Notes under the pieces: generated by a model | Database searches by the model: none | Seen by the model: only the letters and a program-made list of their open reading frames with translations | Told to the model about the DNA's origin: nothing | Part shown: positions 5,166 through 21,602 of the stretch, in pieces | How positions within the stretch are numbered: position 1 is the first letter of the stretch | Layout: every line of letters begins with the position of its first letter | Origin: Baffinella frigidus | Lineage: Eukaryota > Cryptophyceae > Cryptomonadales > Baffinellaceae | Reading direction: 5' to 3' | NCBI GenBank assembly: GCA_026770585.1 | Contig: MU646872.1 | Span: forward strand, 30,306-51,907 | Length of the DNA: 21,602 nucleotides | Program-made: the position numbers and the translations under genes

Positions 5166-6078
5166 TTAGATGGTGATAACGCGGCTGAGCTTCTGTATCC
5201 GGTTGAGGAGCGCGTCGCCCTGCTTGATGGTGGTCTGGTAGAGCGCGTTCTTGCTGTCCGGCCGGTTGCTGCACACCACGCCCTTCACCTTGTCCACCTT
5301 GCAGCTGCGCACCCCGGGACATCGAAAATGTTATGCTTTCGAACAGGTTATGGTTGCCGCGTGAGCGGCGCACTCAACACCCACAGGGGTACCTCGCGCA
5401 TAAGAACGTGGCTCCTCCTAAGCACCAAGCGCGTCCTTGAGGTCCGTGCGGTCCTGTGGGTTCTTCGAGCTCCCATCACAGACGGACGCTGCAACTGCTT
5501 CTGCAGAAAAGCCATGCTTCCTTTCGCATCACATCGAGCCGCTCGGTACAGCGGAGGCCTCTCGGAAGCCTCCGGGCGGCTTTACACTCGCTGGACTACG
5601 CATCTTTCAAGGCCCCCAGATTCTGGGGGTCACGTGAACAAGTTTGACCGGAAATGCACCAACATCAGCGGAATTCAACGACAGCTCTTTTACAATGAAA
5701 ACCTCGCAGTTGATCGTGTGGAGCCTCGGGGGTGAAACGACCCGAGGCCGGGCTGCTATGGCTGAGATTCACTCCTACCAAGAGTGACGCACCACTCGAG
5801 GCTAGAAATGGGACCATTTTAAAACAGAGCTTCTTTTACAAGTGAAGGGGGAAAAAGAAATGTGTGGTAATTTTCATACAAATAGGGGCATTTGGTCACG
5901 TAGCTGAAGTTATAACTTGAGCTACGTGACCAAGCATGCCCGTGACTGGTACTAAATCTAACAACCCCACATTCAAAATAAGCCCTCTTCCAGCCTCAAG
6001 TGGGAGTTCCTCCTACTCAGAACGGCCCCGGGGGAGGCGTTTTTCTCTCTCTGTCCCTCTCCCTCTCAAGGGGTGACG

Positions 6079-6110
<32 letters not shown>

Positions 6111-6154
6111 TCTCTCTCTCCCTCCCTCTCTCTCTCCCTCTCTCAATGGGGGGC

Positions 6155-6191
<37 letters not shown>

Positions 6192-9100
6192 CCTCTCCCT
6201 CTCTCTCTCGCAAGGACCTGAGACGGCCGCACGCGACGAGGTCCGCCAGCTCGGAGTCGAGGAAGGTGACCGAGATGCCAAACGTCCCCGCCATGCTCGC
6301 CATCGACACCTGAAGCATCGGGAAAGCGTTCAGCTCTGGAACCCTTTTTTAAGGCAGCAACTCAACTCATGGTACACAATCCACCCCCCCCAGATTTTAC
6401 AATACGACCAACGAAACCTGATGCGCACCGATCAAATTTATTTGACACCCGTAACACCGCGAAATGCAGGGTGTTGCAGACCTGGATGCAGCCATGAGCG
6501 ACTGCGCAAGCCACTACGGGGGGGGTGACGTGTAGGGCGCCGCGCGGTTGCGCACTCCGAGTGTGTGAGGACCTTTCCGAGTGTGTGAGGGCCTAGTCTA
6601 GCGACGGGCCCGCATCGGGACTAAGGAAGGGCCCGCCTCGGGGCACCCCTTGGAATCAAACCAGATGAGTTGAGCCCACGCGCTCGTTTGATCCGCCGCA
6701 GCCTCGCGGCTCCGTTCTGCATGCAAGAATTGCGCTGCAACTGCCCACGCAAGAGTGGTCGAGGGAAACCAACGCCTTATCCGTGACAGATCTGACGTCG
6801 TCGACTTGAGCATTCAAGGGCTTTCCCCTGAAACGTGTCAAAAGTGGATGTTTCGATCCCTCTGGCGTGGACGTGAGGGGGAGCAATGATGTATTACAGC
6901 AAGGACAAAACGCAACTGCAGGGCGTTTCGGGGGAGATAATGACAAGGATGATTGGGGGAGGGGGGCATCAGATAGTTGTTTGGGGGGGAGCAAATGAGC
7001 AGAGGGTGAAACTGGGGGATGGGTAGGTACCGTGTGGTAGCTCTCGAGGTACTGGGTGTAGGCCACCACGCGCGCCTGATTCGGGATTACGGTTCAGGGT
7101 TTAGGGTCTGGGGTTTAGGGTTTCGGGTCTAGGGTTCAGGGTTTCGGGTTTCGGGTTTCGGGCTTCGGGTTTCGGGTTTCGTCGGGTTTCGGGTTTCGGT
7201 TCGAGTGTTCAGGGTTTCGGGTTTCGGGTTTCGGGTTTCGTCGGGTTTCGGGTGTCGGGTCTAGTGTTCAGGGTTTCGGGTTTCGGGTCTAGTGTTCAGG
7301 GTTTCGGGTTTTCGGGTTTCGGATTGAAGGTTTCGGATTGAAGGTTTGAGGTTCAGGGATTGCCTGGCGGAGGAAGAACTTGGCGTGGGGTGCCATGTAC
7401 TGGTCCAGGTGCAGCTGCGCGACAACGTCCACCAGCGCCTGCACCCACATTGTTTAGCCACAGGGATCTCGGGGTTATCCGGGCACACATCCGGCATCCC
7501 GCGTTAATTAATTCAGCGCCTGCACACGCATCGTTTTAGTCTTATCGTGTAGGCCGGATTTGTATCAGGAGGGCATCGCCCAGGTATCGCCGCGCTGTAC
7601 CTCCTCTAATCCGCTAACTTGAAGTGTCTCCACACCCTGCATCGGACCAAGCGGGAGGTGCACGCACATGGTGGCGAGCACAGACTGCGACGGAGCTAGG
7701 ACGTTTGTGAGTACCGACTTGGCCGCGATTTATGTGGGCCCACCACACATCGCGGGCATGCCGGCATCCCCCCTCGGTCATCGGACCGTGGGGGGGGGGG
7801 TACCTTGCACCGGACCACGCGCACCATGGCATATCTCCTGGAATGTCTGCTCTAAATTCATTTTAACGGCGAGCCCAGTTTTACTCAAGCAGAGCTAGAG
7901 GTCCTGATCCACTTTATCACCGCCGCGAGGAGGGGGGTGGGGACCTTGAAGAGGTCGGCGTAGTTGCAGTGGAAGAGGGAGTTCATCATGTCCTTGATCG
8001 CAGGGGCGTCGTCCTGGTTCAGGGTTTATGGCTTGGGGTGTAGAGTTTAAGGTTTAGGGTGTAGGGTTTCGGGTTTAGGATTTAGGGTTTAGGGTGTAGG
8101 GTTTGGGGTTTAGGGTGCAGGGTTTAGGGTTTGGGGTTTACCACCACCGCGAGGATCTCGGGCGCGTGGATCACCGATTCGCGCACCACCTGATGCAGGG
8201 TTTGGGGGTTGGGGGATAGGGTTTAGGGTTGAGGGCTGGGGGCACCGCCATTACGCCATCTCCACCTCTTCATCCCGAACACGCACGACAACCCAGTGAA
8301 GCACTGCACGGACCCGTGCATGTCCCTTCCCCCCTCTCTATCCCCCCCCCCCCAATCTTTCTCTCTCTCTCTCTCTATCTCGGCCCCTCGCTCTCTCACT
8401 CTCTTTCTCTCTCCCCCCCCTCTCCCCCAACCACGCTCTTGCTAGTCCCTCCTGCGGAGCGCCTGTCGGACCCCTTCTGAGGCTTCTGAGGCGGGCCTGC
8501 CGAACAACACTCGACGGCGCGCCTGCGTGGGCGGTGGGCACAGGCAAGCGCTGGGCACAGTCAAGCGCTGGGGGGGGCACAGATCGACACCCGCTCGCGT
8601 CGGCGCTGTGCCTTCGCACCCTATCGAATCCCGGAACCAAGAGGATGCCGAAATTCCACCGCCGTGTGTTGCGTTTAGGGCAGGTTAGGGGTTCGGGTAG
8701 GGTAGGGTAGGGTAGGGCAGGGCAGGGTAGGGCAGGGTAGGGTGATTCCGTCGAGTACGAATGAGGCTGCAGCCGAGATGGTACCTTGCGGTCGAGCGCG
8801 ACGGTGGCGGAGATGACCATGTAGAAGACAAACTGCTTGTAGTCGTACAGCTCGACCGCCGTGAATGTCGAGATCGAGGCCAGGAAGAGGTCCGCCGCCT
8901 GAGGGTGGAGGGGTTGGGGGTTGGGGGTTGGGGTTTGGAGTTTGGAGTTTGGGGTTTGGGTGGAGGGGGTTGGGGGTTTGGGGTTTGGGGTTTGGAGATT
9001 GGGGATTGGGGTTTGGGGTTTGGGGTTTGGGGTTTGGGGTTTGGGGTTTGGGGTTTGGGGTTTGGGGTTTGGGGTTTGGGGTTTGGGGTTTGGGGTTTGG

Positions 9101-12100
9101 GGTTTGGGGTTCGGGGTTTCGGGTGTAGGGTTTAAGGTTTTAGGGTTTCGTGTGAGGGTTCAAGGTTTTAGGGTTTCAGGTTTCTTGTTTGATGGTAGGA
9201 AGGCGGGATAATGAGGGGGCATGGGTCGGAAGCGCACCCTCTTGAACGAGCGGTTTCGGGTTTCGGGTTTTAGGGTTCAGGGTGTGTGGTTTCAGGGTAG
9301 AAATGCGGAGCATACGCCAGGAGGAAGCACACCTTCTTCAACGAGCGGTTTTGGGTTTCGGGTTTCAGGGTTTATGGTGTGTGGTTTGAGGGTAGGAAGG
9401 CGGAGCAGTTGGAGGGTATAGGGTAGAAAGGCGGAGCATATTCAAGGAGGAAAGCGCACCTTCTTGAAGGAGCGGATCGACAGGAGGTACGTGGCCTCGT
9501 ACACCTTCAGTCGGTTCCTGCGAACAGGGGTTTGGGGTTTAGGGTGTAGGTTATTTCATTAATCAGCGCACCATCGCGTCAATTGAGCCATTGCTATTGG
9601 AGCCTCGTACACCTTCAGTCGCTTCCTGCCCACCACCCAATCCCGTTCAGCCAAATCTGGCTAATCCTCAAAATCTGGCGAATCCTTGGTTTGGAGTGGT
9701 AGCCTTTTGTAAAGAATTTGTGCTGAGAACTTGGGGGTTCCTTTCAATGACTTCGAGCCCTCGGGCATCGCGTCGCGTGCGCCATTGGCATTGGAGCCAT
9801 TGGAGCCATTGGTGGTGCGGCAGCCTCCAGCGGCTGGCGCGCACAAGGCAGCGGCCCCGCGCGACTCTTCACTCCCCGAGAGAGCACCTCCTCCTCTGCA
9901 AGCTCATCCTCTGCAAGTTGGAGCCAAGCACCGCCACCCCTGTCCTGCAGGTTCCTGGGTGCACGTAGAGGGTGCGCAGGACGGGGAGGGCACCTGCGGT
10001 CCCAGCTGCCATGGGTACAACCCGAGGGTTGCCATGGGTACAGCCAGTTGTTGTCATGGGTACAACCCGCCCCCCTTGTCATGGATACAACCCGAGGGAG
10101 GGCACAGGTTCCTGGGGGCAAGAAGAGGGTTCGTGCGCGGGGCGGGGAGGGTCCACCTGAGCTCCCAGTCACCCCAGGTTTCGGGTGTCGGGTTTCAGGT
10201 GTCAGGTTGCGGGTGTCGGGTGCAGGGGTTAGGCACCTGCGCTCCCAGTCGCCACCCTTGTCGACCAGGATCTGCGCGGCCTTGACATGCTTGTCTACCA
10301 GCGGGATGTCCGACCTGGTTTCAGGGTTCGGGTTTAGGGTGTAGGTTGTAGGGTCGAGAACCAACCGCATCACCTTCTGCCGAGTCAGTATTGTGTGCGG
10401 CCTTGCCATGCTTGTCTACCAGCGGGATGTCTGATCGGGTGCATCATTTCGGGTTTAGGGTTCAGGGTCTAGGGTTTGGGGTTTGGGGTTTGGGTTGTGG
10501 GGTTCAGGGTTTGGGGTTTAGGGTTCAGGGTTTAGGGTTTAGGGTTTAAGGTTTAGGGTGAAGGGTGCAGGGTGTAGGGTGTAGGGTTGAGGGTTTAGGA
10601 TCTAGAACCAACCGCATCACCTTCTGCCGAATCAGGGTTGTCGCTAGTCGCGTGGTGTAGCACGGGGGGGGGGGCAGGCGTGGTCCAAATCGCACCAACC
10701 CGCTAGCGAGCAGCCCGCCCGCCCCCTGCGCGCTCGCACCCCCCCGCTATGCTCGATCACAGAGGATGAAACGTGGTGCAGGGGCGCGACCAGAACATGC
10801 CGATGCGGATGAGGTTGAGCTCAATGTCGAGGCGCTGCCCGGACGTGGTCTTCGGGAGCGCCTCCGCCTCGGCGTAGGCCTTCACCGCCACCTCCTTGGA
10901 GTCTGTCCGCGCCAGGATCTGCACCCCAACCACCGCACTCCATCTCACACACTGCATTACCCGACCACCCAACACCTCACACACTGTCTGCCCTGTCACA
11001 CAACACCTCACATACTGCCTGGCCTGCAAGCGCCCACAACCTGCCACCTCCTACACTGCCTCACCACGCAACACCTCAACACACTGCCTCATCTGCAAGA
11101 ACCCACCGCCCGCCAACTCACAAACTGCCACCTCAACTTCAGTACCACATCCTGATACAACTCAACATCGCCTCGGCGAATGGCAAACTGACGCCGCCAG
11201 GTCCCGGGTCCCGAAAAGCACCCGGTGGAGAAAGCTTCGTGCATCTCCCCAGCCCTCCTGTCCCTGAGGCTTCCTGAGGCCGGCCGTCCCCCTCATAAAA
11301 GCTCTCAGCATTCCTTTCCAGAGCTTCTTTCATGAGCTTTCCCTGGGGTGACGGCCCGCCTCACGACCGGTCGTCTCGCGAAGGATGGGGCTTGCTGCAT
11401 CTCCGTAGCCTTCCCGGTCCTGGCGAGCCTTCCATACGCGGGCCGTCCCCCCCCAGAAAAGCTCTGCGATGGATGGGGCGCGCACCTGGGCCTTGGCCAT
11501 CATGCCCTCGCGAACCTCCGAGTCTCCCTCGAGATCCTTGGCCTCCGCAATCGCTGCGTCCATCTGCATTCCAGCGTTTGGGGTTTAGCGTTGGGTGTTT
11601 GGGGATCAGGGTTAAGGGGTTGGAAGACGGCGTGGCGTCACCAGCGGTGCACGCTGCACTATGCACGCCGTGACACGCGTGCTAGGCACAGTCGCGCCGA
11701 GGTGATACAGCCGCCCGCAGGATCGTGGGATGGCTGTGGAATGGGTGAGTGAAGGAAGCCACGAGTGGCTTCTGCCAGGATCCCCCGAGGCTAATGCTCC
11801 AGACAAAGCCAGGGCAGCCGACCTCAGCGATCTTGGCAGCGATTTCAGCGTTCATCTTCTTGAGGATCGCCGCGTCGGGCGCGTTGCCGATCTCCTTGCA
11901 CACCGCTTCGTAGACGGCGACCGCGTCTGCGCGCAAGGCGGGCTCTTCAGCTAGCGTCCCGCTTGGTGGCGGACTGATGATGACACGCCTTTCAAGGAGT
12001 TGTGTGCAGTCATGTAGCGAGCGGGCCGTGGCTGGCACCCTTCGCAGTCTAGGTTCCCCTCCTCAAAAAAGGTCGGGGCGCTGCTGCTGTTGTGAGGTGC

Positions 12101-12585
12101 CCAGGCTTGTCCTGGCAGGTGGTGCGGGGCTGGGCACTGACTGAATCGCTGCACGCCGACCATGAACTCCTCCCAGTCCTTGGCCTTGCTCTCCTTGCTT
12201 GACTTCGGGCTGCACACGCCCCAACCATAGGGTTCAGTTGCGCAATTTCGAATGGAGGGAACCAGCAGGGGGAGCCCGGACCGGCGGGGTGTGCGGGGTT
12301 CAAGCATCTCCAACGCAAAACTCTTGCACCGCGATGCATGTTATCTCAGTCTGCGAACCGCCTGGCTGCATGGGACACCGCCGCCGCCGCCAGCCTGGGC
12401 GAGAATTCCCGGCGCTGATCCCCTATCGTTGAAAGGCAGGCCTACCTCGTTAGCCGGAAGCGGTGGGCCGAGAGCTTCATGAACGCGCCCTCGTTCTCGG
12501 GGTTGTCGTCGATCTTGATCTTCTTCAGCACCACCCCGTCCTTCTTCTCCCCCTTCTTCTCCCCGTCAACCTCCATGCTAGACAT
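5166..12585 (-). CDS. RPN7: 26S proteasome regulatory subunit Rpn7 (PSMD6), complete, 14 exons
   Basis: Exons in transcript order: 12585-12446, 12209-12161, 11942-11823, 11563-11486, 10918-10791, 10314-10237, 9517-9460, 8898-8785, 8189-8142, 8013-7945, 7438-7364, 7075-7031, 6309-6218 and 5304-5166 (stop TAA). They sum to 1233 nt, 410 residues; the family is usually about 390. Phases agree at every junction. Diagnostic stretches: GESEVR-like [14 protein letters not shown] (exon 4), [14 protein letters not shown] (exons 6-7), the PCI region [18 protein letters not shown] (exon 8), PEILAVV (exon 9), YTQYLESY (exon 12), [20 protein letters not shown] (exon 13), and C-terminal [18 protein letters not shown] plus [11 protein letters not shown] (exon 14). 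Rpn7 is a PCI-domain component of the proteasome lid, holding the lid together next to the deubiquitinase module. The N-terminus ([17 protein letters not shown]) is lysine-rich and poorly conserved. An in-frame ATG at 12684 would leave almost no promoter, so 12585 is preferred. Acceptor choice for exon 3 is the least certain. The intron after exon 11 starts with GC. Confidence 0.96.
5388..5413. mobile_element. Fragment of MITE-like family A (one end only)
   Basis: CACAGGGGTACCTCGCGCAT followed by AAGAA matches the terminal repeat of family A. The matching other end is missing. It lies in the last intron of RPN7. Confidence 0.6.
5892..5933. repeat. 42-bp near-perfect palindrome
   Basis: TTGGTCACGTAGCT (5892-5905) pairs with AGCTACGTGACCAA (5920-5933). 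The middle, GAAGTTATAACTTG, is itself a palindrome except for one G/C pair. It lies in the last intron of RPN7 in otherwise AT-richer sequence. It could be a cruciform or RNA hairpin, or the footprint of an excised element. Confidence 0.9.
6041..6210. repeat. CT/GA microsatellite with an internal duplicated spacer
   Basis: Long TCTCTC runs are interrupted by GGGGTGACGTC and GGGGGGCGTC. In the RPN7 transcript this is a GAGAGA tract beginning 8 bases after the exon 13 donor. Open frames made of Leu-Ser or Arg-Glu repeats here are not genes. Confidence 0.9.
7085..7350. repeat. Telomere-like minisatellite forming nearly a whole RPN7 intron
   Basis: Units vary around GGGTTTC, GGGTTTA and GGGTCTAGTGTTCA on the plus strand. 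The intron between RPN7 exons 11 and 12 spans 7076-7363 and is almost entirely this array. In sense it reads CCCGAAACCCGAAA. The acceptor (CCCGAATCAG) and the GC donor (GCAATCCCTGAACC) lie at the array edges. Confidence 0.95.
7511..7538 (-). repeat. Ghost copy of the RPN7 exon 11 acceptor edge
   Basis: CAGCGCCTGCACACGCATCG and the following TTTTA match the real exon 11 5' edge plus acceptor at 7431-7456 (CAGCGCCTGCACCCACATTG, then TTTA). The copy lies about 80 bp upstream in intron 10 and keeps the AG. Confidence 0.75.
8020..8141. repeat. Telomere-like minisatellite forming a whole RPN7 intron
   Basis: The 128-bp intron between exons 9 and 10 (8014-8141) is nearly all GGTTTAGGGTGTAGG units. 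In sense it starts GTAAACCCCAAACCCTAAAC and ends CCCTGAACCAG, so both splice sites are variants of the repeat unit. Confidence 0.95.
8336..8430. repeat. C-rich and CT microsatellite
   Basis: A run of about 11 C is followed by TCTCTC runs and further C-rich text, in the intron between RPN7 exons 8 and 9. It is non-coding. Confidence 0.85.
8692..8742. repeat. 5-bp minisatellite GGGTA/GGGCA
   Basis: About ten units of GGGTA with some GGGCA, in the same RPN7 intron. It is telomere-like but of a different unit length from the TTTAGGG-type arrays. Confidence 0.9.
8905..9180. repeat. Telomere-like minisatellite, GGGTTTG type
   Basis: Seven-base GGGTTTG units are nearly perfect from about 9005 to 9108 and degenerate on both sides. 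The array fills the 3' half (in sense) of the RPN7 intron before exon 8. The open frames with Gly-Leu-Gly-Phe-Gly-Val-Trp repeats are translations of this array, not genes. Confidence 0.95.
9230..9348 (-). repeat. Two ghost copies of the RPN7 exon 7 donor edge
   Basis: The real exon 7 3' edge with its donor is at 9446-9475 (GCGCACCTTCTTGAAGGAGC on plus). Decayed copies lie at 9230-9253 (GCGCACCCTCTTGAACGAGC) and 9321-9348 (GCACACCTTCTTCAACGAGC). Both keep a GT at the donor position, and both are followed by telomere-like units. Confidence 0.85.
9601..9629 (-). repeat. Ghost copy of the RPN7 exon 7 acceptor edge
   Basis: GCCTCGTACACCTTCAGTCG followed by CTTCCTGC matches the real exon 7 5' edge at 9494-9521 at 27 of 28 bases. 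It lies 108 bp upstream in the intron and still ends in a usable AG (GGCAG before GAAGCGACTG in sense). Confidence 0.9.
9988..10175 (-). repeat. Two ghost copies of the RPN7 exon 6 donor edge and a CATGGGTACAACCC tandem repeat
   Basis: The real exon 6 3' edge is at 10231-10257 (GGCACCTGCGCTCCCAGTCG). Copies lie at 9988-10010 (GGCACCTGCGGTCCCAGCTG) and 10151-10175 (TCCACCTGAGCTCCCAGTCA). Between them, 10011-10097 holds about four units around CATGGGTACAACCCGAGGGT. Confidence 0.8.
10395..10436 (-). repeat. Ghost copy of the RPN7 exon 6 acceptor edge
   Basis: GCGGCCTTGCCATGCTTGTC followed by TACCAGCGGGATGTCTGATC closely matches the true exon 6 5' part at 10276-10314. The offset is about 121 bp, in intron 5. 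A neighbouring block, AGAACCAACCGCATCACCTT, is also duplicated (10356-10388 and 10603-10635). Confidence 0.9.
10448..10605. repeat. Telomere-like minisatellite, TTTAGGG type
   Basis: GGGTTTAGGGTTCAGGGTTT-type units in the RPN7 intron between exons 5 and 6, inserted between the two copies of the AGAACCAACCGCATCACCTT block. C-rich in the sense strand. Confidence 0.95.
10930..11135. repeat. Degenerate CACACTGCC-rich minisatellite
   Basis: Repeated text of the form CAACACCTCACACACTGCCT recurs about six times with variation, in the RPN7 intron upstream of exon 5. Downstream, 11230-11310 and 11388-11468 are a decayed direct duplication (GCATCTCC..AGCC..GGCCGTCCCCC..AAAAGCTCT). Confidence 0.7.
11574..11622. 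repeat. Short telomere-like patch next to RPN7 exon 4
   Basis: GTTTGGGGTTTAGCGTTGGG and following GGGTTAAGGGG units lie a few bases upstream (in sense) of the exon 4 acceptor at 11564. Confidence 0.6.
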
Positions 12586-12692
12586 TCCTTTGGCGCGACA
12601 CCTGTGCACCTCAAAAGTGGCTGGGATCTTGGGATCGTCAAAAGTCAACTTGATGGTCAACTTGATCAGAAAAAAACCACCCACAAATTTCC
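12586..12692. promoter_or_regulatory. Probable bidirectional promoter between RPN7 and the pseudouridine synthase gene
   Basis: Only 107 bp separate the preferred RPN7 start (12585, minus) from the pseudouridine synthase start (12693, plus). The interval holds a direct repeat GTCAACTTGAT at 12644-12654 and 12656-12666, preceded by CGTCAAAA. No clear TATA box is seen. Both transcripts must be controlled from here or from within each other's leader. This is inference from spacing only. Confidence 0.55.
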
Positions 12693-13946
12693 ATGATGCG
12701 CCGCCCCGCTCTCATCCTGCTTCTGTGCCTCGAGGCGGTGTCCTTCTGTCCGCCGCAAGGACCAGCGGTTCATGTGGCGCTCTTGCGGAGCCTGCTTCAA
12801 GCCAGCCACACAGCTACACCTCGGTCCTCAACATCATCGGCCGCATCAGTCGGGTCGGAGGTGGCTCTGCCTCCGCGTGTCTCGCGACTCGCTTACCTCG
12901 CAGACCCCTTCTTGGGCCAATCCAGGAAACAGCCGCGGGCCGAAATACGCACCTACTGCCCGATTCCCGTAGAGGACTGTCCAACGGCGCACTCGCTCTT
13001 CCCTCCAGTCCCGAGAGAGCAGCTGCCTCCGCTGATTCACCACATTAATGCCGAGGATGAATGGCCGTCGCTAGTCGAGCTGATCTCGACGCAGGCAGGC
13101 ATACCGGAGAGCCTGGTCCTCGAGCTTCTGCGCTTCGGCGCTGTCTACCTGTCAAAACCGCTCGTCCCCGGCTTGAGAAAGCAGCGCGTGGGGCTTGTGG
13201 AGGGCATGGGCAAGGCGATGCGCGTCACAACAAACGTACCGGTTCCCCGTGGCGCGTATATACGCGTGCATGCAAACCCGAAGCGCCACCTCGAAGCCAA
13301 CGACGTCGACTGGTCAAACCACATCCTCGCGGAAGTGCACGGCCTCGTGGTGATCGACAAGCCGGCCGCCGTTCCCACGGTGCCCACCGTCGACAACCTG
13401 GTGGAGTCGGCGCTGTCCCGCGTGCAGGAGGTGGTGAGGCAGCCGCTGCTCTCGACGTCGCGGCTCGACACGTGCACGTCGGGCGTCGTGATCCTCGCCA
13501 AGACGCAGGAGATGTGCGAGGCGGTCAACTGGGCCCTCAGGAACCGCCAGGTTCCCGCCACACCCTCTCCCTCTCCCGCTCCCGCTCCTTCCCCCCCCCT
13601 CCCTCCCGCGGCTTGCCCCACGCACGCGACCAGCGCACCTCGCACCATCCTCTCTAGCATTGCATACCGCCCTCTCGCATCCCGGTGCCTGATCTCCATG
13701 CCGGTGTCTGATGCCGGCGTCTGAGCGCTGCCCCGCGGCGCCGGCGCAGGTGGTCCACCAAATCCTTAACAGACTTAACAGTCCTTACCAGACCTCACAG
13801 CAGCTGATCCTCAGCAGACTTAACAGCAGCTGGCTGGTAATCTACTGATATACGTGATAGTTAACAGCCAGGTGCTGATGTACAAACCCTGCAGGAGAAG
13901 AGGGGTGGACCGCGTGCTCTGACCCGCGACTCTCTCGCTCTCTCTC

Positions 13947-13987
<41 letters not shown>

Positions 13988-15594
13988 GCCGGCACAGGTG
14001 GAGAAAGTGTACCGCGTGCTCTGCTACGGACCGGTGCCGCTTGGGACGCTCCGCCACTGCTGGCGGAAACGCGGCGCAGGTCAACGAGTCACCCCATCAG
14101 ACCGCCCAAAGGCCTATAAACTCTAAACCCTAGACACTGCCGCCTAAACCCTGAACCCTGAACACCAAACACTAAAAACTAAACTCTAATCACTAAACAC
14201 TCAACCTTAAACCCCAAACCCTGAACCCTAAACCCTAAACCCAAAACCCTAAACACTAGACCCTAGAACCTGACACCTGTACACCAGACCCTAAACACTA
14301 AACCCTAAACACCAAACCCTAAACCCTACACCCTAAACCCTGGTGGACTCGCTCCCCCTCTCCCGCCTCCCCCCACCCCCCCACCACCGCCAGAGAATGC
14401 TGCGTGTGTCCTGGAATCGTCGGTCATTGCTCTCGGTCATGGTAACTCGACTGTACGACCAGCGACACACACACGCGAGGAAACTGAAGACCGGAACATA
14501 CACACACGGAAACTGAAGGACCCTTCTCTGGTTCAGGGGGACACTCAAACGGCAAACCGTCGCTTCTCGCGGCGTGGGATCCGGCATTGCTCGTCACTCC
14601 TGATCAGAAAGAGGTGCGCAACCTCTCTGCCCCCTGTGTGGTTGCGGGCAGCTTGAGCCCTCTGGTCTCGTCACACCTCTCCCCCTAGCGTGACGCGGTC
14701 GTGTCTGGCATCTTGGTAAATCTCGCTCTCCCCCCTTGTTCGCGGATGCCCTTGCGACGTCGGTGGATGGATCATCGCGCTTTCAGGGTTCAGGGTTGAA
14801 GGTCGAGGTGTCTCTAGGGGAAGACGCGCCCTCTTGGGTTTTGAGAAATTCGTATCAAATCGCGAGGCGAGGCGGGGTGTGCTGCTTGATTTGATTTGAA
14901 TTGAATTTCCGGGAAATCGATTCAATGCAGTTGCTCTGACTGTGGTGCAAACTTTTGCGGCACAGTCAGAGCAACTGGACCCCTGCCGGGAGGCCGGCGT
15001 GCTTGGTGCGGCGTCCTTCTTTCATCCTGATCCGGTGCTTCGAGGCGGTGTCCTCATGTCCGTGGACATGAGCAAGGCCGGACGTGAGGACACCGCCTCG
15101 AGGCTTCCCCTAGCGTGACGCGGAACACTCCTAAACCCCGAGCAAGGCCAAGTGCTTTGGGGCACGCCCATGCATTTGAGGTTGAGGGTTCAGGCTTGAG
15201 CGTATAGATAGGGTTTAGGGCTTAGTGATTAGGGCGTATGGCTTAGGGTTCAGGGCTGAGGGGGTAGGGTTCAAGGGGCACGGTATTCATGTGGTGCGGT
15301 CTGCCGTGGTGCAAAGGCTCAACACGGCAGGGGCAATGCTGGAACAGCAGACCATGCACGCATCGCGCTCTGCATCTTCTCATCTGAGCTGTGGGTTTCT
15401 AGGCTCTAAGGGCACCTACGGATGCAAGGTTATGAGGACTCCAATTCTTCTAGGGCATGCCGACGCCTGGCAGCACCTGAATCACGCAAGGTCTCTCCCA
15501 GCGCCGACTTCTTCTTTATTACTCTCGATACAGGTCCTAGATAGGCCCTGAAGCCTTGCGTTGAGTGTATCGCGTGCTCTGACCCGCGGGTCTG

Positions 15595-15633
<39 letters not shown>

Positions 15634-17793
15634 TTCTCGCTCTCTCTCGCTCTCTCTCTGCCGGCACAGGTAGAGAAAGTGAACCGCGTGCTCTGACCCG
15701 CGGCTCTCTCTCTCCATCTCGCTCTCTCTGTCTCTCTCGCTCTCTCTCCCTCCCTCGCTCTCTCGCTGTCTCTCTCTCTCTCTCAGAACTGACGCTCGCG
15801 GCTTGCAGACGGGAGCCGAATGGCAGCTGGCGGAGCTGGAGGTGCGGAAGTGCTCGCCGCTTCCTTCTGTCGGCCTTCTGCAACCGGGTCTTGCCGGTGC
15901 GTGCCCGTCGCCTCGCGTGTTTAGGGTTCAAGGTTCAAGATTTTGGGATGAGGGTTAAACAGAACACTGCACCCTCAACCCGAAAGACTAGACCCTAAAC
16001 CATACACTGGAATCTACACCCTACACCCTAAATCCTGAACCCTAAACTCTAAACCCTACACCCCAAAACCTAAAACCTAAACCCTAAACCCTGAACTCTA
16101 AACCCTAAACCCTAAACCCTAAACCCTAAACCCTCAGCCCACACCCCTCAACTCTCAAACCACAACCCTCAACCCTCAACCCTCAACCCTTAACCCTCAA
16201 CCCTCCCAATCCGTGTGTGTCGGACCCGCCAACGGCGTTGTCCATGCATCGCGTGCTTCATGCAACGGCAGAAAAAGATTGGGCGTGGCTGGCGCACCTG
16301 AGTCACTCCGCGCCTGCGAGTTGATCCGCGGAAACATATTTTTCTTTCATTTCCTTGCAACGAAAATTACTACACAAATACTTTATTACTAGTACGAACG
16401 AATTGTGTACTAATTTTCGTTGTCAGGAAATGGAAGAAAAATAGGTTTTCCCGGATAAGAGTGGCTGGAGCAAGTGCGTGGCACCACGCCGGGTGTCGCC
16501 ATGAAGCAGGCGATACTTGCCCAGCACCTGAGGCATGTCGCTGGGCAGGTGGGCTGTTCGAGTGCGAGGTCAGCTTGATCACGGGCCGCACCCATCAAGT
16601 ACTTCCCTCCCTCCCACGTCAAGTGTTTTGCACGTGATCCCAAGTCAAGAGTTTGGCTCGTTGGACCAACCCCCGATGTTCTCCGATCTTTACCGAGGGT
16701 TTGCCATACCGCTCAAAAGCCGACGCTTCACATCGAGCCCGGATGTCCGGGCGTAACGCGGCCAACAATTACTGGCGCGGGGCCTTACGGGGTATCCTCG
16801 GACGTGCCCCGTACCAACAAAGACGCCCCGGTACTGACCGTGACGGCAGCGTCGACTGATGTCAGCAGTATGATTCGCGTGTGGGATGGGTTCGTCGTCA
16901 GCACCATAAACTCTCAAGTGGTGCAGGTTCGGCTGCAGTTCTCGGCGAGTGGCGCGCCGCTCGTCGGCGATTCACGCTACGCGCCTGCCGCTGGCCGCCT
17001 CGAGGGCCTCGGTGCCGAGGAGGGGGGGAACGCCGGCTTTGAATTTGGGGTGGAGCCTGCGCGCGTGGGGCTGCAGGTCACACCCCCCCCCCTCCCCCTC
17101 CTCAACTCCCTGTGTCTGCGCATGCACGGTCACTCGGACGTTTCATTGTTAGGAGGATGAGTAGACGCACTGACATAGGGAGGGCCCTACGGAAGGGCTA
17201 TTCCTAGGAGCATAGACTCCCGGAGACGGTGCGTTTACTTACTCACGAGTAGGGCCCTAGTGGCGGTGGTTTTCCTTAATTTCGAGTAACCCTTGCATCA
17301 CGCGGTGGTGTCAGGCGGCGCACGTGGCAGAGCCTACTCGCCACTTAAGGGATACGCATGAGACTTGCACTACTGTAGGACCTAAAGAAGGTGCGTTTTC
17401 TTAATTTCGAGTAACCCTTGCATCACGCGGTGTGGCACGCGGCGCGCCGGACACCCCTTGATTGTTAGGAGGATGCGTAGAGGGGACGGTGCGTGTACTT
17501 ACTCGTGAGTAGGACCCGCAGGCGGTGCGTGTTCTTAATTTCGAGTCACGTGGCAGGCGGCGCACGTGGCAGTGACGACGCGCGACGGGCGGCACCTCGC
17601 CTTCGCGGCGGGCGAACCCTGGTGGCGCGACGCCCGCCTCTTGGGGGAGCTGCTGGCGAACGACGCGCACGAGGCGCAGGCCCGCCTCGGGACTGATCAG
17701 GCCCGCCTTGGGAGTGAGGTGTCCGCGTGTCAGGACGATGTCCTCACGCGCAGCGATGTCGCTCCTCTCGTTGAGAGTCTCTCCGCACACTGA
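12693..17793 (+). CDS. RluA-family RNA pseudouridine synthase, six exons, probably targeted by an N-terminal presequence
   Basis: Exons: 12693-13550, 13998-14087, 15809-15896, 16549-16598, 16927-17076 and 17557-17793 (stop TGA), about 490 residues. Exon 1 holds a presequence (MMRRPALILLLCLEAVSFCP), an S4-like stretch (LLRFGAVYL, then GAYIRVHANPKRH), the motif HGLVVIDKPAAVPTVPTVDN and the active-site block RLDTCTSGVVILAKT. Asp 259 is the expected catalytic residue. Exon 2 gives VEKVYRVLCYGPVPLGTLRH, exon 3 WQLAELEVRKCSPLP, exons 4-5 FECEVSLITGRTHQVRLQF and GAPLVGDSRYAP, and exon 6 the tail with LAFAAGEPWW. The family isomerises uridine to pseudouridine in rRNA or tRNA; the target is unknown. 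The motif order resembles plant-type organellar RluA proteins. The hydrophobic start followed by Ser-Phe-Cys-Pro could be a plastid-type bipartite signal. The weakest point is the exon 2 donor (14087, CGA before GTCACC; alternative 14079), and a small exon between 14088 and 15808 could be missed. Confidence 0.92.
13896..13985 (+). repeat. Partial ghost of exon 2 followed by CT microsatellite
   Basis: GGACCGCGTGCTCTGACCCG (about 13907-13926) copies the exon 2 text ACCGCGTGCTCTGC with a stop TGA. It is followed by a long TCTCTC run that ends at the real exon 2 acceptor region and may serve as its polypyrimidine tract. Confidence 0.75.
14110..14340. repeat. Telomere-like minisatellite, CCCTAAA orientation
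   Basis: Degenerate CCCTAAACCCTGAACACCAA-type units on the plus strand, in intron 2 of the pseudouridine synthase gene. The array is again C-rich in the sense strand of its host gene. Confidence 0.95.
14638..14730. repeat. Dispersed repeat, copy 2 (copy 1 at 4342-4435)
   Basis: Shares TTGAGC-CTCTGGTCTCG and AGCGTGA-GCGG-CGTGTCTG with the first copy. It lies in intron 2 of the pseudouridine synthase gene. Confidence 0.7.
14928..14977. repeat. 50-bp hairpin with 17-bp perfect arms
   Basis: CAGTTGCTCTGACTGTG (14928-14944) pairs with CACAGTCAGAGCAACTG (14961-14977). The loop contains GCAAA-C-TTTTGC, which pairs again, so nearly the whole unit is self-complementary. Confidence 0.95.
15022..15101. 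repeat. Inverted repeat that includes a decayed copy of the gene's own first exon
   Basis: Bases 15022-15062 match 12712-12752 (codons for ILLLCLEAVSFCP) at 35 of 41 positions. TCGAGGCGGTGTCCTCA (15040-15056) is perfectly inverted at 15085-15101, with ATGTCCGTGGACAT between. The exon 1 fragment was thus copied into intron 2 and is now part of a hairpin. Confidence 0.85.
15180..15275. repeat. Telomere-like patch, GGGTTTA orientation
   Basis: GGGTTCAGG, AGGGTTTAGGGCTTAG and AGGGTTCAGGGC units. This is G-rich on the sense strand, against the usual orientation seen in the other introns of the window. Confidence 0.75.
15563..15785 (+). repeat. Two further ghosts of exon 2, each followed by CT microsatellite
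   Basis: At 15563-15589 (GTGTATCGCGTGCTCTGACC and following) and at 15658-15705. The second keeps GCCGGCACAG, an AG acceptor, then GTAGAGAAAGTGAACCGCGT and GCTCTGA. It matches the start of real exon 2 (13998-14024) at 24 of 27 bases but ends in an in-frame TGA. TC-repeat tracts at about 15595-15660 and 15705-15785 follow each ghost. Confidence 0.9.
15915..16205. repeat. Telomere-like minisatellite, mainly CCCTAAA orientation
   Basis: A short GGGTTCAAGG patch switches at about 15960 to a long CCCTAAACCC / CCCTCAACCC array reaching about 16205, in intron 3 of the pseudouridine synthase gene. Confidence 0.95.
16322..16458. mobile_element. MITE-like element, family G, copy 1
   Basis: An inverted repeat over nearly its full length: TGATCC and GGAAACATATTTTTCTTTCA at the left against the inverted right end (TTATCC, GGAAAACCTATTTTTCTTCC). 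The centre is TTTATTACTAGTACGAA. Flanks read GAGT on both sides, a possible 4-bp target duplication. The core CGAAAATTACTACACAAATA is shared with 20006-20154. Confidence 0.85.
17145..17556 (+). repeat. Tandem duplication in intron 5 carrying copies of the exon 6 acceptor
   Basis: ATTGTTAGGAGGATG recurs at 17145 and 17461. GGTGCGTGTACTTACTC and TTCTTAATTTCGAGT recur two to three times. The acceptor segment CAGGCGGCGCACGTGGCAG (real at 17554-17572) is found intact at 17312-17330 and altered at 17431-17446. A 25-bp end of family B (17329-17353) interrupts the first copy. Confidence 0.85.

Positions 17794-21526: not shown

Positions 21527-21602
<76 letters not shown>
21527..21602. other. 76-base run of C at the window end
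   Basis: An uninterrupted C homopolymer runs to the last base. This is most simply a sequencing or assembly artefact at a contig end (poly-G reads), though a real homopolymer cannot be excluded. In minus sense, the text just before it (21498-21526) reads VWMHALEE and ends at a GTGCGC donor like those of RPN7, so an exon of another gene might begin here; that is a guess. Confidence 0.7.

Follow-up and report, generated by a model that had tools for sequence, protein, structure and literature searches.

In five out of six genes of Baffinella frigidus, introns contain decayed copies of exon edges of the same gene, and the copy often includes the splice site. We call these copies ghosts. They were studied in the window, the whole 21,602-nucleotide stretch of DNA analysed, which carries genes for the proteasome subunit RPN7 and a pseudouridine synthase (PUS), and in four genes elsewhere in the genome. 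Our preferred reading, to which we give a probability of roughly 0.6, is that ghosts were left by short local tandem duplications blind to exon borders, with the exon-side copy kept by selection, and that the duplications probably arose through break repair.

Decayed exon-edge copies in five of six genes

The initial annotation had suggested aligning introns to their own borders and comparing the result with mismatched pairings. Run on the six genes (57 introns, 114 borders, simple repeats masked in the targets), at a score of at least 30 this comparison recovers an own-intron copy for 16 borders, 10 acceptors and 6 donors, in 14 introns, against 0 of 2731 pairings of a border with an intron of another gene (Fisher p about 1.5e-23, ignoring dependence among pairs). 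The excess persists at other thresholds: 21/114 versus 5/2731 at score 26, 12 versus 0 at 34 and 7 versus 0 at 40. An earlier and smaller count on the two window genes, masked and at the same threshold of 30 or more, gave 6 of 38 borders in their own intron and 1 of 684 border-by-other-intron pairs; the single control match, between PUS exon 2 and PUS intron 3, is also local. The four outside genes alone have ghosts at 10 of 76 borders and in 9 of 38 introns (CCT1 4/34, CCT4 5/14, CCT6 1/6); HSP70 has none at any of its 22 borders at this score. Most copies are 5-25% diverged.

The outside genes were located by Pfam searches, and their exons were mapped with human template sequences. CCT1 contributes 18 exons, which contain one stop when joined, a segment of CCT4 contributes 8 and a segment of HSP70 contributes 12; at the start of CCT6, 4 of 7 mapped exons were kept. 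CCT6 was cut to its first four exons, since the fifth was a spurious 5-residue match and the remainder lay beyond it. LHC genes were left aside, several matches being long single exons with few introns.

Exon ends are firmest for RPN7, where they were set by spliced alignment with P0001, a 408-residue transcript-derived protein with a Baffinella frigidus taxid and the label MMETSP0986, presumably that of a transcriptome project. P0001 is 98% identical over 99% to the joined-exon RPN7 query, its alignment to the window gives consistent splice sites throughout, and the joined exons read 408 codons without a stop. All seven ghosts initially reported for RPN7 exons 6, 7 and 11 were recovered by local alignment to their own exon border (Table 1). 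RPN7 intron 11, following the exon at 7364-7438, has a GC donor, as does the mapped CCT4 intron 2.

For PUS, exon limits were placed manually on the basis of alignments to relatives; the start, the end and exons 3-4 are approximate, and the joined exons contain 5 stops. Of the three ghosts claimed for PUS exon 2, two are clear copies; the search for border matches did not return the third, at about 13905-13930. Both clear copies lie downstream, in intron 3 and past exon 3, so they contradict the expectation that acceptor ghosts lie upstream of their exon. One of two ghosts assigned to exon 6, which is exon 7 in our numbering, crosses the border, and the other (17390-17415) ends before it. The start of PUS exon 1 has an inverted copy in intron 3, at about 15079-15104, besides the direct copy in the table.

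Table 1. Genes, ghosts and arrays in the window (positions counted from its first letter)
Feature	Positions	Strand	Remarks
RPN7 (26S proteasome subunit) gene	5169-12576	-	14 exons, 13 introns; spliced alignment with P0001; Pfam RPN7
RPN7 exon 11 acceptor ghost	7514-7536	-	20/23; AG retained
95-bp tandem unit, 1.9 copies	9228-9407	-	Tandem Repeats Finder; the two exon 7 donor ghosts lie in it, as does telomere-like sequence
RPN7 exon 7 donor ghost 1	9230-9253	-	22/24
RPN7 exon 7 donor ghost 2	9319-9348	-	27/30, one gap
RPN7 exon 7, exon-side copy	9460-9517	-	Spliced alignment with P0001
RPN7 exon 7 acceptor ghost	9602-9629	-	27/28
RPN7 exon 6 donor ghost 1	9989-10011	-	20/23; GT retained; use would give an open frame
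RPN7 exon 6 donor ghost 2	10154-10173	-	18/20; GT retained
RPN7 exon 6, exon-side copy	10237-10314	-	Spliced alignment with P0001
Telomere-like array	10317-10354	-	C-rich on sense strand; direct-repeat flanks; between exon 6 edge and exon 6 ghost
RPN7 exon 6 acceptor ghost	10397-10434	-	36/38 bases; CG in place of AG
Telomere-like array	10446-10605	-	Direct-repeat flanks 10359-10394 and 10606-10641
PUS gene	12690-17793	+	7 exons; spliced alignment with P0122-P0124; Pfam PseudoU_synth_2
Copy of 12694-12752, near the start of PUS exon 1	15004-15062	+	47/59; intron 3
PUS exon 2, second clear copy	15564-15581	+	17/18; intron 3
PUS exon 2 acceptor ghost	15655-15695	+	38/41; lies in intron 3, which does not adjoin exon 2
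PUS exon 7 acceptor ghost	17262-17344	+	59/65 versus 17521-17586

Form and origin of the copies

The ghosts are local genomic copies that run across the exon/intron junction, their homology sometimes reaching 30-50 bases into the intron. An alignment to genomic sequence scores above an alignment to the spliced exon pair in 19 of the 21 ghosts compared, the exceptions being the RPN7 intron 6 acceptor (52 versus 54) and a self-overlapping alignment in CCT1 intron 16. An origin from spliced mRNA copied back into the genome is thereby disfavoured. A paralogue source was sought for RPN7, and none was found: all 11 scored genomic matches of P0001 fall in the RPN7 locus of the window.

When exons with 25-base flanks were compared with adjacent introns, 20 of 23 direct matches crossed an exon end; the other three comprise an internal match, one that ends 3 bases before the exon end and one confined to the flank. 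Tandem duplication requires such crossings, and scattered copying should give more purely internal exon copies. The initial annotation's view that short tandem duplications span the borders is borne out by several ghosts that lie within tandem units, namely the 95-bp array of RPN7 intron sequence and the stretch 10273-10641, where exon edge, array and flank form one unit.

A plain tandem unit does not explain four of the ghosts. In the CCT4 intron 2, CCT6 intron 3 and RPN7 intron 6 acceptors and the CCT4 intron 3 donor, homology ends 2-6 bases into the intron while the exon side is still 85-96% identical, and a fresh unit should extend further. Later replacement by an array, or a templated insertion, may be the cause.

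Some or all ghosts could instead be working alternative splice sites, or exon duplicates under selection. Exon-side mismatches fall 11, 5 and 28 at codon positions 1, 2 and 3, with no nonsense change among the 44, in a set of 16 matches at a score of at least 34 that includes one HSP70 match that is no border ghost; PUS was left out because its hand-set exons give stops when joined. Under an assumed rate model, this bias exceeds simple neutral decay of the outer copy (p 0.006, or 0.04 without the HSP70 match and three CCT6 copies). Silent change in the exon accounts for part of the third-position excess, and the rest could reflect past use of some ghosts. A splice dinucleotide, AG or GT, is kept at a fixed offset in 11 of 16 ghosts, and two further ghosts have one when alignment gaps are allowed (one GC, as in the exon copy, and one AG). 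Against present use, splicing at the ghost site would preserve an open reading frame in 1 of 16 cases, which makes the ghosts, as judged from their reading frames, poor candidates for productive alternative splicing. None of 28 exon-to-intron matches covers a whole exon with both splice sites, as mutually exclusive duplicated exons would, and P0001 reads KHVKAA and RRNRLKVYE, in agreement with the exon-side copies of RPN7 exons 6 and 7. We therefore regard functional alternative sites as quite unlikely to account for the ghosts.

The start of exon 4 recurs five times in CCT6 intron 3, each copy in an acceptor-like context and four of them reading AG|GT; together they might form a series of recursive splice sites. 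By our own reading, the sequence upstream of these ghosts is of two types, and neither resembles the sequence upstream of the real exon 4. Recursive splicing was set aside as a general account, since AG|GT is absent from most ghosts of other genes.

Telomere-like arrays and local duplication

The further claim that ghosts are often joined to telomere-like arrays is supported by the sequence around those arrays. At score 28, direct-repeat flanks were found at 16 of 71 telomere-like arrays and at 55 of 710 controls with the same gap (p 0.00025); at score 40 the counts were 9/71 and 28/710. Arrays whose flanks were mostly masked or N were excluded, and no flank pair taken across loci matched (0/319). 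Four of the ten best direct-repeat-flanked arrays are in RPN7. Other simple-repeat arrays show a weaker tendency (8/55), so the telomere-like motif may not be special and the effect may be general to arrays.

Defined as 12-mers with up to 2 mismatches, telomere-like sequence covers 22% of the intron bases of the six genes in C-rich form on the sense strand and 1% in G-rich form, compared with 0.6% and 0.1% in base-shuffled introns. C-rich sense stretches occur in 41 of the 57 introns, and this orientation prevails in 40 of the 41 introns that have a prevailing strand. No telomere-like arrays were found in the exons of the six genes. The arrays are denser near acceptors (four genes), and they overlap the -45 to -3 region at 29 of 57 acceptors. 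Outside the six genes, in DNA with no sense strand assigned, telomere-like sequence amounts to 1184 C-rich and 3640 G-rich bases. In PUS intron 4, G-rich and then C-rich telomere-like sequence stand head to head at 15919-16204, a possible hairpin whose first, G-rich stretch runs opposite to the usual orientation. One-sided orientation suggests that such DNA is drawn into splicing or filtered by splicing, and the sense-strand bias is possibly more important than the ghosts themselves.

Local duplication is widespread in this genome, which was searched as 382 Mb in 1364 contigs. Direct local duplications occur in 16 of 17 other stretches having more than 2 kb of sequence, 14 of them chosen near CCT or LHC matches and three at will. 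Their share of unmasked bases reaches 37% in these stretches and is 7.4% in the window, one of the lower values. At score 40, the density of direct pairs falls nearly 60-fold, from about 0.5 per base of distance below 200 bases to 0.009 at 1.6-3.2 kb, and inverted copies are also present, at lower density below 200 bases. The window ends in a run of 76 C (21527-21602), possibly an assembly artefact, and the stretches C560:1-20000 and C560:20306-30305, with one other, are N throughout.

Border-blind duplication as the probable cause, and its alternatives

It had been proposed that introns grow specifically from the border outward. This part of the initial annotation we cannot uphold, as intron interiors are duplicated too and a position-blind simulation reproduces the border share of duplicate pairs. 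In the 57 introns, 19 of 46 pairs (41%) touch a border; a simulation in which tandem units of 30-160 bases fell without regard to position, run with parameters of our choice and without arrays, gave 40-48%. Counted by segment over the six genes, matches were found for 16 of 114 borders and for 196 of 1624 interior segments (12%), and for 14 of 77 unmasked borders (18%). In the window alone, matches within 700 bases were found for 9 of 72 border segments and 98 of 595 interior ones. Exon positions 50-60 bases from the border match at a rate of 1-2%, the junction itself at 21% and intron positions at 4-20%.

A splice junction might nevertheless be a hot spot, for instance through breaks linked to transcription or splicing, from which introns would lengthen border outward. 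The bootstrap ratio of border to interior matches, when matched by intron, is 2.2 (1.2-4.4), above the 0.55-0.82 expected from simulation. Border pairs occur in 14 introns and interior pairs in 8, and the four ghosts that stop at most 6 bases from the junction point the same way. The balance varies by gene: CCT1 has 7 border and 0 interior pairs, CCT6 has 4 and 15. However, the interval of the pooled ratio (1.5, 0.82-3.6) spans equality, the pair-level share falls inside the position-blind range, and two biases would favour borders, in that masked arrays lower interior detection and conserved exon halves keep border pairs detectable for longer. A border preference is thus not required by the data, a moderate border excess is possible, and we consider border-directed duplication on balance improbable.

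The ghosts could also be the remains of intron gain, in which introns arose from tandemly duplicated AGGT exon segments, a proposed mode that has been demonstrated in one case (PMC3443670, PMC2891723). Such an origin should pair a donor-spanning copy with an acceptor-spanning copy of the same intron. This was seen in 0 of the 46 pairs of the 57 introns at score 34, where older events could have lost the signal, and we hold the explanation to be very unlikely. Less likely still, in our judgement, is that the ghosts reflect chance, low sequence complexity or errors of assembly. Simple repeats abound in the introns and gaps interrupt the assembly, but the repeats were masked in the targets, cross-gene matches were absent, and copies diverged to the extent seen here do not resemble one sequence assembled twice.

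We propose a model where short tandem duplication strikes DNA irrespective of exon borders. A unit that includes a donor or acceptor would initially leave a splice site in each copy, and the intron would become longer by one unit with each such event. The right protein comes from the exon-side copy alone, from which we infer that selection keeps that copy while the outer one would drift as intron DNA. The likely trigger is repair of DNA breaks, during which telomere-like repeats would be added and the fill-in of staggered ends would place the array between direct repeats. As the length of the array changed afterwards, the copies would be pushed apart.

It is tempting to speculate further, as a tentative idea that we hold with considerable doubt, that one coupled repair process makes introns grow. 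Breaks in transcribed DNA would be healed with telomere-like repeats of one sense (CCCTAAA in the RNA), each healing duplicating its flank. The array would double as branch point and pyrimidine tract, lengthening the intron, renewing the 3' splice site and stranding exon edges as ghosts.

Comparison with known systems

Polymerase-theta end joining reportedly leaves templated insertions, short copies of nearby DNA inserted at breaks. Compared here by the pattern of local copies alone, such insertions would fit the ghosts whose homology ends at the junction.

Short interstitial telomeric sequences at double-strand breaks offer a likeness for the arrays. At staggered breaks in the horse genome, insertion of telomeric repeats can leave them flanked by direct duplications of the target, and 3 of 66 loci are listed as duplication (PMC7215372). 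Like those sequences, our arrays are internal, absent from exons and in some cases flanked by direct target duplications. Unlike them as there described, ours are far denser, filling more than a fifth of intron bases in the six genes, and have a strong sense-strand bias; they are telomere-like by motif alone.

Introners, which would place the same sequence in introns of unrelated genes, find no counterpart in the cross-gene border comparison, and a spot-check of the window gave 4 far matches of 573. Among the matches listed, titles and abstract openings mentioned no border copies left by intron lengthening, and the main text of the CCMP2293 genome paper has no word beginning with intron or telomer (PMC9756366).

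A further related system is intron gain by tandem genomic duplication. In that mode (PMC3443670, PMC2891723), a short duplication makes a second splice site too, and the protein-preserving reading persists. Here, by contrast, the duplicated unit covers a border that already existed, introns already present become longer, and no intron was seen at a new position. What is known already is thus tandem genomic duplication as intron gain; what is apparently new is border copies from the lengthening of existing introns. Because exon edges are conserved, a ghost marks duplication in DNA that otherwise erases its own history, and ghost counts give a direct measure of intron lengthening and of competing splice sites made and then silenced. 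The published CCMP2293 assembly has 534.5 Mb, 6.1 times that of Guillardia theta (PMC9756366), so the process that makes ghosts may bear on genome expansion.
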